64,000 bases of DNA from positions 49,718 through 113,717 of the forward strand of contig JAMOWA010000051.1 in NCBI GenBank assembly GCA_027061805.1, in the 5' to 3' direction. Within the stretch, counting starts at the first letter, position 1, and every line of letters begins with the position of its first letter. The position numbers and the translations under genes were made by a program. The notes below the pieces were generated by a model. That model did no database searches, was not told the DNA's origin, and was given only the letters and a program-made list of their open reading frames with translations. This DNA comes from Thermoanaerobaculia bacterium. GTDB taxonomy: Bacteria > Acidobacteriota > Thermoanaerobaculia > Thermoanaerobaculales > Sulfomarinibacteraceae. Shown one piece after another: positions 7,190-35,829 of this stretch.

Positions 7190-7697
7190 GGTCCACCTCC
7201 TCCCCGACGATCTCCAGAAGGGCTCCCCGGACCTTCCTCCACGTGGTCTCCAGGTCCTCGGGGATGATCCGGACGTCGCCCACCACCGAGATGAAGTTGG
7301 TGTCGGCGCGCCACCGCGGGACCACGTGGAGGTGGAGATGCTCCTCGATGCCGGCCCCGGCAGCCTCACCGAGGTTGAAGCCCACGTTGAACCCGTGGGG
7401 CCCGTAGACCCTCCGGAGCGCCCGGATGAGGTTCCGGCCGGTCAGCATGATCTCCGCGAGCTCCGCCTCTCCCAGGGCATCCAGGTCGGCCACGTGCTCC
7501 CGCGGGGCCACCATGGCGTGGCCCGAGGTGTAGGGGTAGCGGTTGAGGAGCGCGAAGCAGGTCTCGCCCCGCCACAGCGTCAGCGTGGAGGCATCGTCGT
7601 CGCTTGCCAGTGCGCGGCAGAAGATGCACTCACCGTCCACGGTCTTGTCTGCGGACGTCACGTAGGTGAAGCGCCAGGGGGCGAAGAGAGGCTCCAT
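7176..7697 (-). CDS. HIT-family hydrolase
   Basis: HLHLHVVPRW histidine triad, CIFCRAL N-terminus. Confidence 0.9.
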   Translation of the reverse strand: MEPLFAPWRFTYVTSADKTVDGECIFCRALASDDDASTLTLWRGETCFALLNRYPYTSGHAMVAPREHVADLDALGEAELAEIMLTGRNLIRALRRVYGPHGFNVGFNLGEAAGAGIEEHLHLHVVPRWRADTNFISVVGDVRIIPEDLETTWRKVRGALLEIVGEEVDHGGA

Positions 7698-29526: not shown

Positions 29527-30480
29527 TCACGAGAGCGGGATCTCCTGCCCCATCTCGTCGATGAACCGCACCTCAGGCTCGAGGATGATCCCGGCACACT
29601 CCCGTACCCTCCTGCGCATGATCCGGGCCAGCTCCAGCACGTCGGCAGCCGTGGCTCCCCTGTCGGTCACCACGATGTTGGCGTGCTCCTGGGAGACCCG
29701 TGCCCCCCCGACCCTGAGACCCTTGCACCCGGTGGCCTCCAGGAGGCGCCCGGCGAAATCGCCCGGGGGGTTCCTGAACACCGAGCCTGCTGTCGCTCCC
29801 CGGGGGAACCGCGCGCTCCTGGCCGCACTGACCTCCCGCATCCTGCCCATGATCCCGGCGAGATCTCCCGGCTCGAGGGAGAGGCGGGCCCTGACGATGA
29901 CGCCGCTTCCCCGGGGCAACGAGCTCCACCGGTAGCCGAACTCCACGTCACCCGCATGGACCTGGACGAGCCCTCCCTCCGGACGGAGGACCTCGGCCCG
30001 GTCCAGCAACTCGCAGATCTCCACACCACCCGCTCCCGCATTCATGGCCAGGGCACCGCCCACCGTCCCCGGGATGCCGAACAGCTCCTCCATGCCGGAG
30101 AGCCCGGCACGTGCCACCGCGCGGCAGACCTGTGTCAGGTTGGCACCCCCACCGGCAACCACACCGTCCAGGTCCACCTCCAGCCCGGCGAGGGACCCGC
30201 CCAGCGTCAGGACGGGGATCCGCAGGCCGGCGTCGGGGGCCACCACGTTGGTTCCACCACCGAGGACGAAGAAGGGTTGCTCCATTTCACCCAGTGTCCC
30301 GACCACGGTGGAGAGCGCCTCCGGCGTGTTGCACCGCACCATGAGATCGGCCGCCCCGCCGACCTTCAGCGATGTCCAGGCCCGGAGCTCCACGCGCTCG
30401 TGCAGCTCGATCGGGAGCCGCCTTCCAAGCTCCCGAAGGCCCCTGAGGAGCGTCTGAAGGCTCTGCACGGTACCCGTCAC
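29527..30480 (-). CDS. murB: UDP-N-acetylenolpyruvoylglucosamine reductase
   Basis: VLGGGTNVV, GIPGTVGGALAMNAGA, GSVFRNPPGDFAGRLLEATGCKG, VSQEHANIVV. Confidence 0.92.
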   Translation of the reverse strand: MTGTVQSLQTLLRGLRELGRRLPIELHERVELRAWTSLKVGGAADLMVRCNTPEALSTVVGTLGEMEQPFFVLGGGTNVVAPDAGLRIPVLTLGGSLAGLEVDLDGVVAGGGANLTQVCRAVARAGLSGMEELFGIPGTVGGALAMNAGAGGVEICELLDRAEVLRPEGGLVQVHAGDVEFGYRWSSLPRGSGVIVRARLSLEPGDLAGIMGRMREVSAARSARFPRGATAGSVFRNPPGDFAGRLLEATGCKGLRVGGARVSQEHANIVVTDRGATAADVLELARIMRRRVRECAGIILEPEVRFIDEMGQEIPLS

Positions 30481-30496: not shown

Positions 30497-30511
30497 TGGC
30501 ACGGCTCTTGC
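30497..30511 (+). promoter_or_regulatory. Sigma54 (-24/-12) promoter, perfect consensus
   Basis: TGGCAC-GGCTC-TTGC on plus strand; no plus-strand CDS downstream. Confidence 0.65.
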
Positions 30512-30522
30512 GTGTCACTGGA

Positions 30523-30603
30523 AGTGCGTACGGAGGACAACCTTCGACACACGGATCATACCTCCTCCTTCTTCCAGCGGGCCCACGGGCCCGCCCCTTT
30601 TTT
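30523..30603 (+). ncRNA. Candidate sigma54-dependent small RNA (~80 nt)
   Basis: Lies between the sigma54 element and an intrinsic terminator; contains a pyrimidine-rich CCTCCTCC stretch; no credible CDS. Confidence 0.5.
30577..30603 (+). terminator. Intrinsic (rho-independent) terminator
   Basis: GCGGGCCC-AC-GGGCCCGC then CCC and TTTTTT; T-run only on plus strand. Confidence 0.8.
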
Positions 30604-30628
30604 GCTCCGGACCGGCGGCCCGCTTCCA

Positions 30629-33600
30629 TCATTCCACTCCGAGAAACTTCATGTGATAGAGCAGTGTCTGGCGGGTGATTCCGAGGTCCCGGGCCGCAGC
30701 GCTCCGATTGCCTCCGTTGCGATGGAGGGCATCCTCGATGAGCCCACGTCGCAACCGCCGGTGAGCCTCCTCCCACGACTGTGGCCGTTCCGCAAGACCG
30801 TGGCCCTGTCGGTGCATACCACCACCACCGTCCCGGACCGGTACGGGTAGGTGGGAGGGACCGACGATGCCACCACGGGCCGCGATCAGGGCCATCTCCA
30901 CGATGTTCCGGAGCTCCCGGGCGTTGCCGGGCCAGGAATGACGGGACAGCACCCCCAGGGCCTCGGGACTCCACCGTGCCGGCGCCAGCCCGTGCCGGGC
31001 CACCGCGGCTGCCGTGAAGTGCTCCACGAGATCGGCGATATCCCCGGGACGCTCCCGCAACGGGAGGATCCGGATGACGGCCGTGGCAATCCTGAAGTAC
31101 AGGTCCGTCCGGAAGCACCCCTCGGTCATGGCCCGTTCCAGGTCGGAGTTCGTGGCCGAGATCACCCGGACATCCACCCTGTGAAGGGCCTCCGAACCCA
31201 CGGGACGCACCTCGGAGGACTCGAGGAAACGGAGCAGCTTGGCCTGGAGCGCCATGTCCATCTCTCCGATCTCGTCGAGAAACAGCGTCCCCCCGTCCGC
31301 GGCCGCCACGAGTCCCTTCCGTGACCGGTCCGCCCCCGTGAAGGCCCCCCGGACCGAACCGAACAGCTCGGTCTCCACCAGCTGGGGTGGAAGTGCCGCC
31401 ATGTTGACGGGAACGAACGGCCCCCGACGGCCGGACAGCTCATGAAGCATCCGCGCCGCGACCTCCTTGCCCACTCCCGTCTCCCCGACCAGAACCACGG
31501 GAACCGAGCTGGGTGCAAGTCGCTCCAGCTCCGCCCGGAGGGCCCGTGACGCCGGGCTTCTCCCGACAAACCCCGTTCCGCCCGGCTTCGCGGGGGTTTC
31601 CTGACCGGAACCTGCCAGCGTGAGCGAGAGCACCACGGCCAGCAGGTTCCACGCCGGACCTGGCGGGGCCTCGCTCCCGAGTGGAACGAGCACCGTGGAT
31701 CCCCCGGGGGTCTCCTCGCCCGCCTCCCCGTGTCCCACCCTCAGGAGCGGCGGCCCGCCGTGACGGCTCCGAACCTCCAGTCCATCCAGGCCCAGCTCCT
31801 CGAGCACGCCACCCCAGGACCGGTGTTCCGGTCGCGGAACGGTCCCGCTTTCCAGGATCCGTGTCGCGAGCGCGCTCACCGCCCCCCCCGGAACCCCGGG
31901 CGCCACCACCTTCCGCCACCCGTCAAGCCCCCCGTCCCCGAGCGTCCGGGCCACCCGCCGGCGCAGGTCGCCATCGGCCCACCCCTGCCGTCCGAGGAGC
32001 CGCTCGCACAGGGCCAGGGCGAACCCCTCCTGCAGGGTGGCGCCGCCCTGGCACAACGTCTTCCGTGCAGCCTCGGGTCGTCCATGTCGCACGGCCTGGA
32101 GGCATCCCGCCGCCAGGAAGAGTCCCCACCCGTCACGGCCCTGCCGAACCTCCAGGCCCTGGAGCGCCTCGATGACCGCCAGCCAGCCCCCGGCCTCCTC
32201 TCCACCACGCAGCAGCGCCGATCGCGCGCTGTCAAGGTCGTGCCGGAGGAGAGCTGCCACACCCTCCAGGAGGGAGAGAGGGGCCGAGAGGGAACGGTCG
32301 GGTGTGGCCACGCGCTCCCTCAGGCCGGACAGCCGCTCCAGGAAGGAGGCCTCGTGGCCCCGGGCAAGATCCAGCCGTGCCATCTCTGCCTCGAAGAAGG
32401 GATCCCATCCCTCCTCGGCCCCCTCCCTCAGCCGGCGGAGAGCCCGCTCCACCTGCAGCCTGTCCAGCTCTGCCACGCCCAGGTTGAACGCCGGCACGCG
32501 GGTCCTCCACCGGAAGCCGGCGGCCTGCAGGAGCTGCATGGCCCTGAGGTGATGGCGGTCTGCCTCCACATTCCGGCCGCGGTTCAGCGCGATGTACCCG
32601 AGGTCGAGTTCGGAGAGGCCCCGGAACCCCGGCCGGTCCTCCCTCCGGAGGACCCGGAGAAGAAGCCGGCGTGCCAGTTCCTCACGACCCTCGTCCTTCC
32701 AGAGGTTGGCCACCCGCCGGAGCAGGACCCTTCGCAGGCGTTCCGGTCCGGAGAGAGCCTCCCGCCGCCATGCCCTGTCCTTCAGCACCACCTCTGCATC
32801 CACGAGGAGCTCGGCCTCCAGGCGAAGCCGGGCTCCCACTGGACCCCCGGCAGACAGCGCCGCACGGCGAGCCAGCTCCGTCCAGCGCCCGGCATCTCCC
32901 GCCCCACGCTGCACGGCACGCTCCAACATGCGGAGCGCCACCTCCCCAACCGCCACGGGTACGGCCCGAGGGTCCAGGTCTGGCAGCAGCTCGTTGACCC
33001 GCACGACAGGACCGTCCACGGCCGCCAGCCAGGCCCTGTAGGAGGACCGGACCTCCTCCGGAAGGCCCTCCACGAGAGGCCTCGCCGTGGCGAGGTCCAG
33101 GTCCGACAGTGCCGACTCCACCCGGCAGGCCAGGAGCTCTCCGGAGAGGGCGTCGGGGTCTGCGAGCCCGAGGATCGACCGGACCTCCCCGGGCTCCATG
33201 GCGCGAAGTCGCTGCCGTGCCCAGTCCAGCAGCTCCGGCCGGGACGGATCCCCGAGGTACCCGTGGAGCAGCCTCCTGGGGTTGTCTCCGGGGAACAGTG
33301 CGGCCACCTGGAGGTGCAACGGGTCCCGCCGCACCGGCTGGGGCGTGGGCCACCGCCACAGTCCACCCTCCAGCTCCGCACCCAGCGCTGCAACCCTCGA
33401 CGCCAGGGTCTCCCCCGCGAGTCCGGTCTGGGCCGACAGGAGCCCCTCCGGGACCCCCTCGGGTGCCAGACCAAGGCACCTCCGGAGCAGCTCGTCCGTG
33501 TCCCCGCCCATGCCCGTTTCCGGTGGACCCTCCGCGAAGAGCCATGCCGCCGACCGGGTCAGGGCCTCCCCTCCTGGGGCGTCGGGACGGCGGAGGCGCT

Positions 33601-34513
33601 CCGCCCACCGTTCCGCCTCCAGCCGCGCCCGGTCCCGCGGAATCCCGGTCACGAGGAGATGGCTCTCCGGTGGGGATCCACCGAGAACCGGTGGAACGGG
33701 TGGCGCCCACCCCCCGGGGAAACGGCCCACCACCACACTGCTGCGGTCCGTGCCCTCCTCCACCCAGCGCTCGGCGGCAAGAATATCCTTCAGCACGAGG
33801 GCGCCGGACAGGATGAGAACCCCACCGGGATCCCCCACCACCGGGAGGGGCGCCGTGCTCTCCTCGGGCAGCGATCCCCTGTACCAGAAGACCCGTCCTC
33901 CCCCGGACCGCACCGTGACGGCCAGGACCGCTGCCAGGCGGTGCGCGAGGCTCTCCCGGGGCATGGACCAGTAGGTGATCTCTCCCCCGGCGGGCTCGGG
34001 AAGTGGGTCCAGCCGGAGAGCCCACAGCGACCGGGCAACCCGGGCCGGGAGGGGCGGACGGAGCTCCGCCAGCACGGCCTCGAGCCAGGGCTCGAAGGTG
34101 AGCCACTCGATACGCCGGTCGGCCGGATCCACCGGAAGATCCATCCCGAGCCCCGTGGCGAGCGCCTCCACCAGTCCGTCGCGGCAACCCCTCACCGCCA
34201 TCTCGGCTCCGCCCAGCCTGGCGGCAAGACCGTCCACCGGACGGGGCCAGGCCCGGAGCACCGCACGGACGCCACGCTCATCCCTGAGCACCAGCATGTT
34301 CCGCACCGGGGCTGCTCCCACGTGGAGCTCCACCTCCTGGAGGAGGGAGGCCAGGGCGAGAACCTGGGCCGCCACGGCAAGGCGTTCCCGACGCGACAGT
34401 CGGCGGACGGGTCTTCCGGACGGCACCGCTGGCCCGATGGCGAGCGTCTCCGGTGCAGGCACCGCCAGCAACGGATGATCCAGCAGGAGCGGCAATCCCG
34501 TCCGGAGGCTCAT
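30629..34513 (-). CDS. Giant (1294 aa) sigma54-dependent transcriptional activator with long N-terminal TPR-like/degenerate sensor region, AAA+ and Fis-type HTH
   Basis: VLVGETGVGKEVAARMLHELSGR, GAFTGADRS, GTLFLDEIGEM, RTDLYFRI, C-terminal NRSAAARDLGITRQTLLYHMKFLG; ATG overlaps aroA stop. Confidence 0.9.
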   Translation of the reverse strand: MSLRTGLPLLLDHPLLAVPAPETLAIGPAVPSGRPVRRLSRRERLAVAAQVLALASLLQEVELHVGAAPVRNMLVLRDERGVRAVLRAWPRPVDGLAARLGGAEMAVRGCRDGLVEALATGLGMDLPVDPADRRIEWLTFEPWLEAVLAELRPPLPARVARSLWALRLDPLPEPAGGEITYWSMPRESLAHRLAAVLAVTVRSGGGRVFWYRGSLPEESTAPLPVVGDPGGVLILSGALVLKDILAAERWVEEGTDRSSVVVGRFPGGWAPPVPPVLGGSPPESHLLVTGIPRDRARLEAERWAERLRRPDAPGGEALTRSAAWLFAEGPPETGMGGDTDELLRRCLGLAPEGVPEGLLSAQTGLAGETLASRVAALGAELEGGLWRWPTPQPVRRDPLHLQVAALFPGDNPRRLLHGYLGDPSRPELLDWARQRLRAMEPGEVRSILGLADPDALSGELLACRVESALSDLDLATARPLVEGLPEEVRSSYRAWLAAVDGPVVRVNELLPDLDPRAVPVAVGEVALRMLERAVQRGAGDAGRWTELARRAALSAGGPVGARLRLEAELLVDAEVVLKDRAWRREALSGPERLRRVLLRRVANLWKDEGREELARRLLLRVLRREDRPGFRGLSELDLGYIALNRGRNVEADRHHLRAMQLLQAAGFRWRTRVPAFNLGVAELDRLQVERALRRLREGAEEGWDPFFEAEMARLDLARGHEASFLERLSGLRERVATPDRSLSAPLSLLEGVAALLRHDLDSARSALLRGGEEAGGWLAVIEALQGLEVRQGRDGWGLFLAAGCLQAVRHGRPEAARKTLCQGGATLQEGFALALCERLLGRQGWADGDLRRRVARTLGDGGLDGWRKVVAPGVPGGAVSALATRILESGTVPRPEHRSWGGVLEELGLDGLEVRSRHGGPPLLRVGHGEAGEETPGGSTVLVPLGSEAPPGPAWNLLAVVLSLTLAGSGQETPAKPGGTGFVGRSPASRALRAELERLAPSSVPVVLVGETGVGKEVAARMLHELSGRRGPFVPVNMAALPPQLVETELFGSVRGAFTGADRSRKGLVAAADGGTLFLDEIGEMDMALQAKLLRFLESSEVRPVGSEALHRVDVRVISATNSDLERAMTEGCFRTDLYFRIATAVIRILPLRERPGDIADLVEHFTAAAVARHGLAPARWSPEALGVLSRHSWPGNARELRNIVEMALIAARGGIVGPSHLPVPVRDGGGGMHRQGHGLAERPQSWEEAHRRLRRGLIEDALHRNGGNRSAAARDLGITRQTLLYHMKFLGVE

Positions 34514-35829
34514 CCGTCCGTCACCAGGTTCCACTGATCCCAGAAGCCCGGGAACGACTTTGCCACGCACCCCGCGTCATCGAGACGCAGGGGACCCGCA
34601 ACCAGGGCGGCGACGGCCATGGCCATGGCGATGCGGTGATCCCCGGCCGCCACGACGTCCACCGCTCGTTCCAGGGGCGACAGCGAGCCGAGCACGCGGA
34701 ACGTGTCACCGGTGGTCTCCAGCCGGGCGCCGCACCGGCGGAGGTTCCCGGTCATCACGCCCAGCCGGTCGCTCTCCTTGTGGCGCAGGTGCGCAAGGCC
34801 CGTGAGCTCCGACCCCGGCGGCGCGGCCGCGGCCACCACCGCGAGGGCCGGGAAGAGGTCGGGGGAATCGGCCAGGTCCGCACGAAACGGCACCAGGGTA
34901 CCCCCCACGACCCGCACCCCTCCCGGGACCGTCTCCCACCGTGCCCCGGCCCTGGTCAGGACGTCGAGGATCGAGCGGTCTCCCTGGCCCGAGGAGCAGT
35001 CCAGGGGCCGGATCTCCACGCTTCCCCCGACCCCGGCGGCGGCCGCCGCGAAGAAGGACGCTGCGGACCAGTCGCCTTCCACCGCGAACTCCACCGGCCG
35101 TGGCAACCCCGGGGGAACCTTCCAGAGCCGTCCGTCGCCGGAGCACCGTACCTCCAGCCCCCAGGCGACCATGGCCCGTCGGGTGAGCTCGAGGTACGGC
35201 CGCGACGGGACGGGGCCCTCCAGGTGGAGCTCCAGGCCCCGCGCCATGCGTGGCGCCGCCAGGAGCAGGGCGCTGACGAACTGGGAGGAGGCTCCCGGCC
35301 AGATCCGGAGTCGGCCTCCCCGGGGCGTGCACCCCCTCACCTCCACCGGGAGCCTTCCGCCCCCTGCGGGCCGCAGCGCCACGCCCAGCCCCCGGAGGGC
35401 ATGGACGAGCGGTCCCATCGGACGCTCCCTGAGTCTCTCCGTTCCGTCGACGACCCAGGTGCCGGGTACCGTGGCCAGCAACGCCATGAGGAGCCGGGCC
35501 CCGGTCCCCGAGTTGCCCAGGTGAACCGTGGCCCTCTCCACCGCGGTATCGCGTGGGCGCATCTCGATGCCCGCACCGCCCCACTCCAGCGGCCAGCCGG
35601 CGGCCCCGAGGGCCCGCCCGAGGACCAGCGTGTCCTCGCACGCCAGGGGCGAGGTGATCGTCCCTCCGTCTGCGAGGGCGGCGAGGACCAGCGCCCTGTT
35701 GGTGAGGCTCTTCGACGGGGGCACCCGGACGCTGGCCGCAATCCCGCTCCGGTGACCGGACAGGAGCCTGGGGCCGGCCGCGGTCAACCGGAGCCCTTCT
35801 GGAGGGTTCAGATGGACTTGCGGGGACAC
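34510..35829 (-). CDS. aroA: 3-phosphoshikimate 1-carboxyvinyltransferase
   Basis: VPPSKSLTNRALVLAAL, LGNSGTGARLL, GDWSAASFF, RHKESDRL, GDHRIAMAMAV. Start uncertain (GTG 35829 or up to 35886). Confidence 0.93.
   Translation of the reverse strand: MSPQVHLNPPEGLRLTAAGPRLLSGHRSGIAASVRVPPSKSLTNRALVLAALADGGTITSPLACEDTLVLGRALGAAGWPLEWGGAGIEMRPRDTAVERATVHLGNSGTGARLLMALLATVPGTWVVDGTERLRERPMGPLVHALRGLGVALRPAGGGRLPVEVRGCTPRGGRLRIWPGASSQFVSALLLAAPRMARGLELHLEGPVPSRPYLELTRRAMVAWGLEVRCSGDGRLWKVPPGLPRPVEFAVEGDWSAASFFAAAAAGVGGSVEIRPLDCSSGQGDRSILDVLTRAGARWETVPGGVRVVGGTLVPFRADLADSPDLFPALAVVAAAAPPGSELTGLAHLRHKESDRLGVMTGNLRRCGARLETTGDTFRVLGSLSPLERAVDVVAAGDHRIAMAMAVAALVAGPLRLDDAGCVAKSFPGFWDQWNLVTDG

Follow-up and report, generated by a model that had tools for sequence, protein, structure and literature searches.

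The gap between murB and a sigma54-activator gene, which lies within the 64-kb stretch of DNA from an uncultured Acidobacteriota bacterium analysed here (the window), raises the question of whether a sigma54 promoter located in this gap drives a small regulatory RNA and, if so, how such an RNA would act. An earlier note had proposed a perfect sigma54 promoter at this position, driving an unannotated transcript of about 80 nt that ends at a strong terminator. The reading favoured here, with a probability of roughly 70%, is that the locus encodes a trans-acting, sigma54-controlled sRNA of about 80 nt that blocks ribosome-binding sites (RBS) by means of an anti-Shine-Dalgarno (anti-SD) linker. 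The features of the locus are the following:

29527-30480, minus strand: murB (Pfam MurB_C), start codon by ORF call
30497-30511, plus strand: sigma54 promoter TGGCACGGCTCTTGC (-24/-12 TGGCAC-N5-TTGC), exact consensus
30523-30603, plus strand: predicted sRNA of about 80 nt, its putative +1 placed 12 nt past the -12 C
30524-30552, plus strand: 5' hairpin of the predicted fold, covarying in relatives, among which the stem sequence differs
30553-30576, plus strand: single-stranded linker GGATCATACCTCCTCCTTCTTCCA, predicted unpaired, containing the core, the proposed seed
30560-30571, plus strand: anti-Shine-Dalgarno core ACCTCCTCCTTC, exact in about 29 of 33 genomes
30577-30603, plus strand: intrinsic terminator identified by scan, a 7-bp GC hairpin and T6, whose stem covaries in relatives
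30629-34570, minus strand: sigma54-activator gene (Pfam Sigma54_activat (AAA+), AAA lid and Fis-type HTH), containing GAFTGA

Promoter and terminator within the window

The sigma54 site is present as the earlier note had described it, and it is the single match to TGGCAY-N5-TTGC on both strands of the window. However, since 0.09 matches would be expected and 8 of 100 shuffled windows carried at least one, this site by itself could be a matter of luck. Likewise, a lone terminator-like match is not above chance, with 0.7 expected per 2 kb, so that the weight of the terminator rests on its conservation. It is formed by the hairpin GCGGGCCCACGGGCCCGC at 30577-30594 followed by CCCTTTTTT, with T6 at 30598-30603. 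The GC hairpin and the T-run, which is confined to the plus strand, had been correctly recognized before, whereas the stem contains 7 G-C pairs in the scan rather than the 8 bp initially claimed. Taken singly, therefore, each element lies within chance for the window and would be compatible with a sigma54-like site that happens to precede an unrelated terminator, which makes the comparison with relatives decisive.

Conservation among relatives

Conservation in close relatives had been set beforehand as the test that could refute the proposal, and it was found that promoter, spacing, anti-SD tract and terminator are all kept in two families. The sigma54-driven unit, defined as TGGCAY-N5-TTGC, ACCTCCTCCTTC 60-70 nt further on and a terminator, belongs to one order (Thermoanaerobaculales, as labelled in most records), where about 33 of 39 genomes have it, 19 of the 22 in family f1 and 14 of the 17 in family f2; several of the f1 and f2 genomes without it are incomplete assemblies. 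In G007, G026, G029 and G038, close variants of ACCTCCTCCTTC are found instead of the exact sequence. Among the other genomes of the class, the unit was detected in none of 112. A nucleotide search matched 28 of 41 genomes, mainly over the block 30549-30603, and every matching locus with upstream sequence on its contig is preceded by TGGCAY-N5-TTGC or by a site one mismatch away from TGGCAC-N5-TTGC, 60-70 nt ahead of the ACCTCC core. When promoter and ACCTCCTCCTTC were sought together in 85,462 species (one genome each), the pattern was recovered at 26 places, all in Acidobacteriota and mostly labelled Thermoanaerobaculales; 25 of these are the sRNA, and the other (L058) looks like coding DNA and has no terminator.

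Covariance models delimited a similar range, considering that the E-values of these searches are rough. Of the 151 genomes of the class, 35 were matched by the f1 model, each of them belonging to f1 or f2, and the matches of the f2 model, across 297 genomes of the phylum, were confined to the same order, although the stricter filters used in this search may have missed weak relatives. In the window, model R2 matched positions 30522-30604 with 65.8 bits. The predicted RNA measures 77-90 nt among the members, and because the differences in length are not multiples of three and neither ATG nor GTG is present in many members, the RNA is not coding, in agreement with the earlier observation that no plus-strand gene lies between promoter and terminator. 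As judged by sequence comparison, chance could not explain a sigma54 site conserved at near-fixed spacing across more than 30 genomes.

Fold and covariation

The RNA of the window was predicted to fold with a minimum free energy of -30.8, compared with -20.0 ± 2.9 in shuffles (z -3.7), leaving the pyrimidine tract CATACCTCCTCCTTCTTCC between the 5' hairpin and the GC hairpin. The motif CCTCCTCC reported at 30561 is present as part of the anti-SD core and is predicted to be unpaired. In every member, the CCTCC core is predicted unpaired with a probability of 0.85-1.0, and the tract is almost invariant. Directly 5' of the core, most members carry the anti-AUG triplet CAU, which is missing in some, for instance L017, L021 and L023. 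The GGAGG sequence noted at 30532 does exist, but its supposed pairing with CCTCCTCC was rejected: relatives have not conserved GGAGG, and its partner in the predicted fold is CCUUC at 30541-30545.

Because the stems misregister in the joint f1 and f2 alignment (A2), whose consensus fold was poor, this alignment was split into A3 and A4. In the f1 alignment, 17 double-change cells were counted versus 7.9 ± 2.5 in shuffles, and the covariation score was 0.203 versus 0.136, values that were reached in neither case by any of 500 shuffles. Four of the seven pairs in the 5' stem and four of the eight in the terminator changed on both sides, and the proportion of paired cells fell from 86% to about 41% when the partner was slid by one base. 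When the arms of the f1 5' hairpins were swapped, cognate arms averaged -11.8 against -9.1, yet they were rarely the best in their row, so that this comparison contributes little. Covariation was thinner in f2, with 3 double-change cells versus 0.7 in shuffles, a value reached by 3 of 500. Thus, both stems covary across relatives, with strong counts in f1 and weaker ones in f2. The joint conservation and covariation in two families refute a fortuitous pairing of promoter and terminator, the chance of which is regarded as negligible, and favour a structured RNA with an open anti-SD linker.

Neighbouring genes and a second locus

It had been noted that murB is divergent and that the activator gene converges on the region, and both statements hold. 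Since these two genes share one strand, the RNA runs antisense to the interval separating them, and most f1 and several f2 loci are arranged as murB(-), sRNA(+), activator(-). The N-terminal portion of the activator, about 1000 aa, has no Pfam match, and its identity in f1 is 37-43% across the full length, while in f2 the C-terminal half alone was aligned.

This arrangement suggests a cis-antisense RNA, in which a read-through activator-murB mRNA would be the perfect complement and through which the sRNA, or transcription from its promoter, would modulate either murB or the activator mRNA at its 3' end; in some genomes, the murB start even falls at or within the -24 element. However, murB and activator are both absent from the locus in G001, G006, G008 and G018, murB is absent from it in G023-G026 and G038, and activator homologues are located elsewhere in G006, G008, G011, G014 and G018. 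Promoter, core and terminator persist at the loci without either or both neighbours, indicating that the sRNA is a unit of its own. Additionally, the invariant CCTCC linker is far from the murB start, whereas the part nearest to murB is variable.

The core-terminator module also recurs elsewhere. A search for core plus terminator revealed a second locus in six f1 genomes (G000:C57:43517, G004, G009, G010, G011 and G015), flanked by a PMT_2 glycosyltransferase gene and an aroD/aroE fusion, which are quite different neighbours. Its core is ACCTCCTCCTTCCTTCGG or close to it, followed by a terminator, and about 60-100 nt upstream a conserved GTAACCTTT-N14-16-CGTATCAAC is found, which we take to resemble an ECF sigma promoter. 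A ACCTCCTCCTTCC-terminator module was recorded at this second sRNA-like locus in L199 (G000:C57, about 7440-7559), L200, L201, L202, L203 and L166. This recurrence indicates that the module works apart from the murB/activator neighbourhood and from the minus strand, and it shows, as far as the putative promoters tell, the same module used twice under different control (sigma54 and ECF-like). With the locus conserved in this manner, regulation in cis through murB or the activator gene is unlikely.

A further possibility is that the conserved element belongs to the minus strand, where GGAGGAGG-TATG would serve as RBS and start codon for a short leader peptide preceding murB. In fact, GGAAGAAGGAGGAGGTATGATC on this strand places a strong SD directly ahead of an ATG. 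Nevertheless, the frames past the ATG differ among relatives because of indels in the hairpin region, the CAT is absent in some members, and the unit is kept without murB. The sigma54 site and the T-run are both plus-oriented, and at the second locus, where the module is likewise retained, both flanking genes lie on the plus strand. A leader peptide is therefore considered very improbable, and the plus-strand sRNA is retained as the preferred reading.

Concerning its control, the neighbouring activator is, by its adjacency, a plausible candidate for driving the sRNA promoter. The link is plausible rather than proven, since the sRNA unit persists where the activator was lost from the locus. A search for shared palindromes near the promoter that might be activator sites gave none that was convincing, the best repeat falling inside the murB coding sequence.

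In three f2 genomes, a further conserved hairpin was observed about 4.6 kb from the sRNA (L075:12670-12736, L077:12582-12661 and L073:3329-3394), with the sequence ATATCCCAC(T/G)TTCGTGGGATTG ... GCAAGGTGGAAGCTGGCCGCTCCTTCCGGTGGTGC..GCACCACCAATTTTTT, and it is possibly another small RNA.

Comparison with known small RNAs

The window had no match above the gathering score in Rfam release 15, and the best sub-threshold model was SorX (11.9 bits versus 46.6, E 1.9). A literature search found no described sRNA from this Acidobacteriota lineage. Qrr and CrcZ are short sRNAs controlled by sigma54 and, like GlmY/GlmZ, they have other seeds and mechanisms, CrcZ for example binding Hfq/Crc. GlmY/GlmZ are also sigma54-dependent (PMC7073468). 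The predicted RNA shares with all of these its short length and sigma54 control and differs from them in seed, in presumed mechanism and in lacking a match to an Rfam family. As in this class, the promoter stands at the right distance and is kept in relatives, and rpoN and an activator gene are both present, rpoN being indicated by a Sigma54_AID domain match on the same contig (G000, C51).

The Myxococcus Pxr sRNA, a developmental gatekeeper with three stem-loops, seems to depend on a sigma54 promoter for its transcription, and its gene is adjacent to nla19, which encodes a sigma54-dependent regulator (PMC5568312). The likeness is one of arrangement only, a sigma54 promoter next to the gene of a sigma54 regulator, and by the description of Pxr, rather than by its sequence, the present RNA is set apart in having two predicted hairpins instead of three.

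The csRNAs of Streptococcus consist of two stem-loops separated by an unpaired stretch complementary to the SD and AUG; these Firmicutes RNAs belong to the CiaRH regulon and are controlled by CiaR, their second stem is the terminator, and several members share the tract (PMC3091779). The same architecture of two stem-loops and an unpaired linker was found here, with CAU in most but not all members. The present RNA differs in its sigma54 promoter, in its phylum and in the at most two loci seen per genome, and no sequence relation is claimed. In rhizobia, the alpha-r14/NfeR1 sRNAs carry ultraconserved, unpaired CCUCCUCCC anti-SD motifs, the tested seed, between stems that vary in sequence, and they silence mRNAs at the initiation region (PMC10746234). 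They are tied to NtrBC, and NfeR1, which LsrB activates and NtrC represses, is not reported as sigma54-driven (PMC10746234). In contrast to their three hairpins, each with CCUCCUCCC, one motif lies between two hairpins here. The sRNA is thus a new RNA family of an already known kind.

Candidate targets

Targets were sought by sequence pattern only. In the 22 f1 genomes, the full linker complement with a start codon (AGGAGGAGGTATGATG) occurred at one place outside the sRNA locus, and matches to the f2 version were almost exclusively the sRNA loci themselves. This one place, G000:C47:3106, before a gene for a 90-aa membrane protein, was discarded as a long unique target because the site is not conserved. 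GAAGGAGGAGGT with one mismatch was not enriched in G000 (127 versus 130 for the reversed pattern). Since long complements are rare outside the sRNA loci and GAAGGAGGAGGT is not enriched, long pairing is not the mode of action, and short SD pairing is indistinguishable from background in such counts. By a crude test, signal peptides were found in 26 of 59 genes with AGGAGGAGG before the ATG versus 38 of 194 (p 0.0003). However, the excess was not significant against other strong-SD genes (15/49, p 0.17; 19/67, p 0.09), and exported or outer-membrane proteins were consequently dropped as a target class.

Elsewhere in G000, a gene for a ferredoxin-type (4Fe-4S) subunit (L091, G000:C8:37488) has a start region, GACGGAGGGGATATGATC, with partial complementarity to the sRNA linker, and a sigma54-like site (L001, G000:C8:35290) is located about 2.2 kb upstream of this gene; the case is a single one and may be due to chance.

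These searches yielded no conserved mRNA target, which would agree with a decoy whose pyrimidine tract binds a protein or sponges an RNA with exposed GGAGG instead of pairing with mRNA starts; an open tract within otherwise unconserved parts also fits a binding site. On the other hand, the tract matches the anti-SD exactly and in most members has a CAU beside it, as is seen in sRNAs known to block RBSs (PMC3091779, PMC10746234), and no candidate partner of a decoy was identified. A decoy is thus not likely, and trans-acting RBS blocking is favoured because the plan matches that of the csRNAs and the seed that of alpha-r14, the control is Pxr-like and Hfq is encoded.

Proposed mechanism and its meaning

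Hfq genes were found in 40 of the 41 genomes searched, and the T6 provides the U-rich tail, so that, by genes and sequence, the RNA qualifies as a possible Hfq-dependent trans-acting sRNA. A second, more distant Hfq-like domain is encoded in nearly all 41 relatives (E about 1e-9 to 1e-5). In the proposed mechanism, sigma54 RNA polymerase, probably awakened by the adjacent AAA+ activator, would initiate at about 30523 and terminate at 30577-30603, giving an RNA in which an open pyrimidine-rich linker joins the 5' hairpin to the terminator hairpin. The anti-SD copy of the linker, ACCUCCUCCUUC, mostly with CAU just 5' of it, would pair, probably assisted by Hfq, with the RBSs of a group of mRNAs, whose translation would thereby be lowered. 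As for the two loci, it is conceivable, though doubtful, that the sigma54 sRNA and the ECF-type sRNA share one anti-SD module in order to connect two unrelated stress or nutrient signals with a common set of RBSs, or that both act by broad mimicry of the 16S rRNA 3' end.

Conservation, covariation and persistence without both flanking genes thus support the sigma54-dependent regulatory RNA that the earlier note had suspected. With promoter, activator and seed all predicted, this well-bounded family makes the sigma54 regulon and riboregulation testable in this lineage. Beside the csRNAs and alpha-r14, it also represents another, apparently independent, case of an open anti-SD tract between variable stems.
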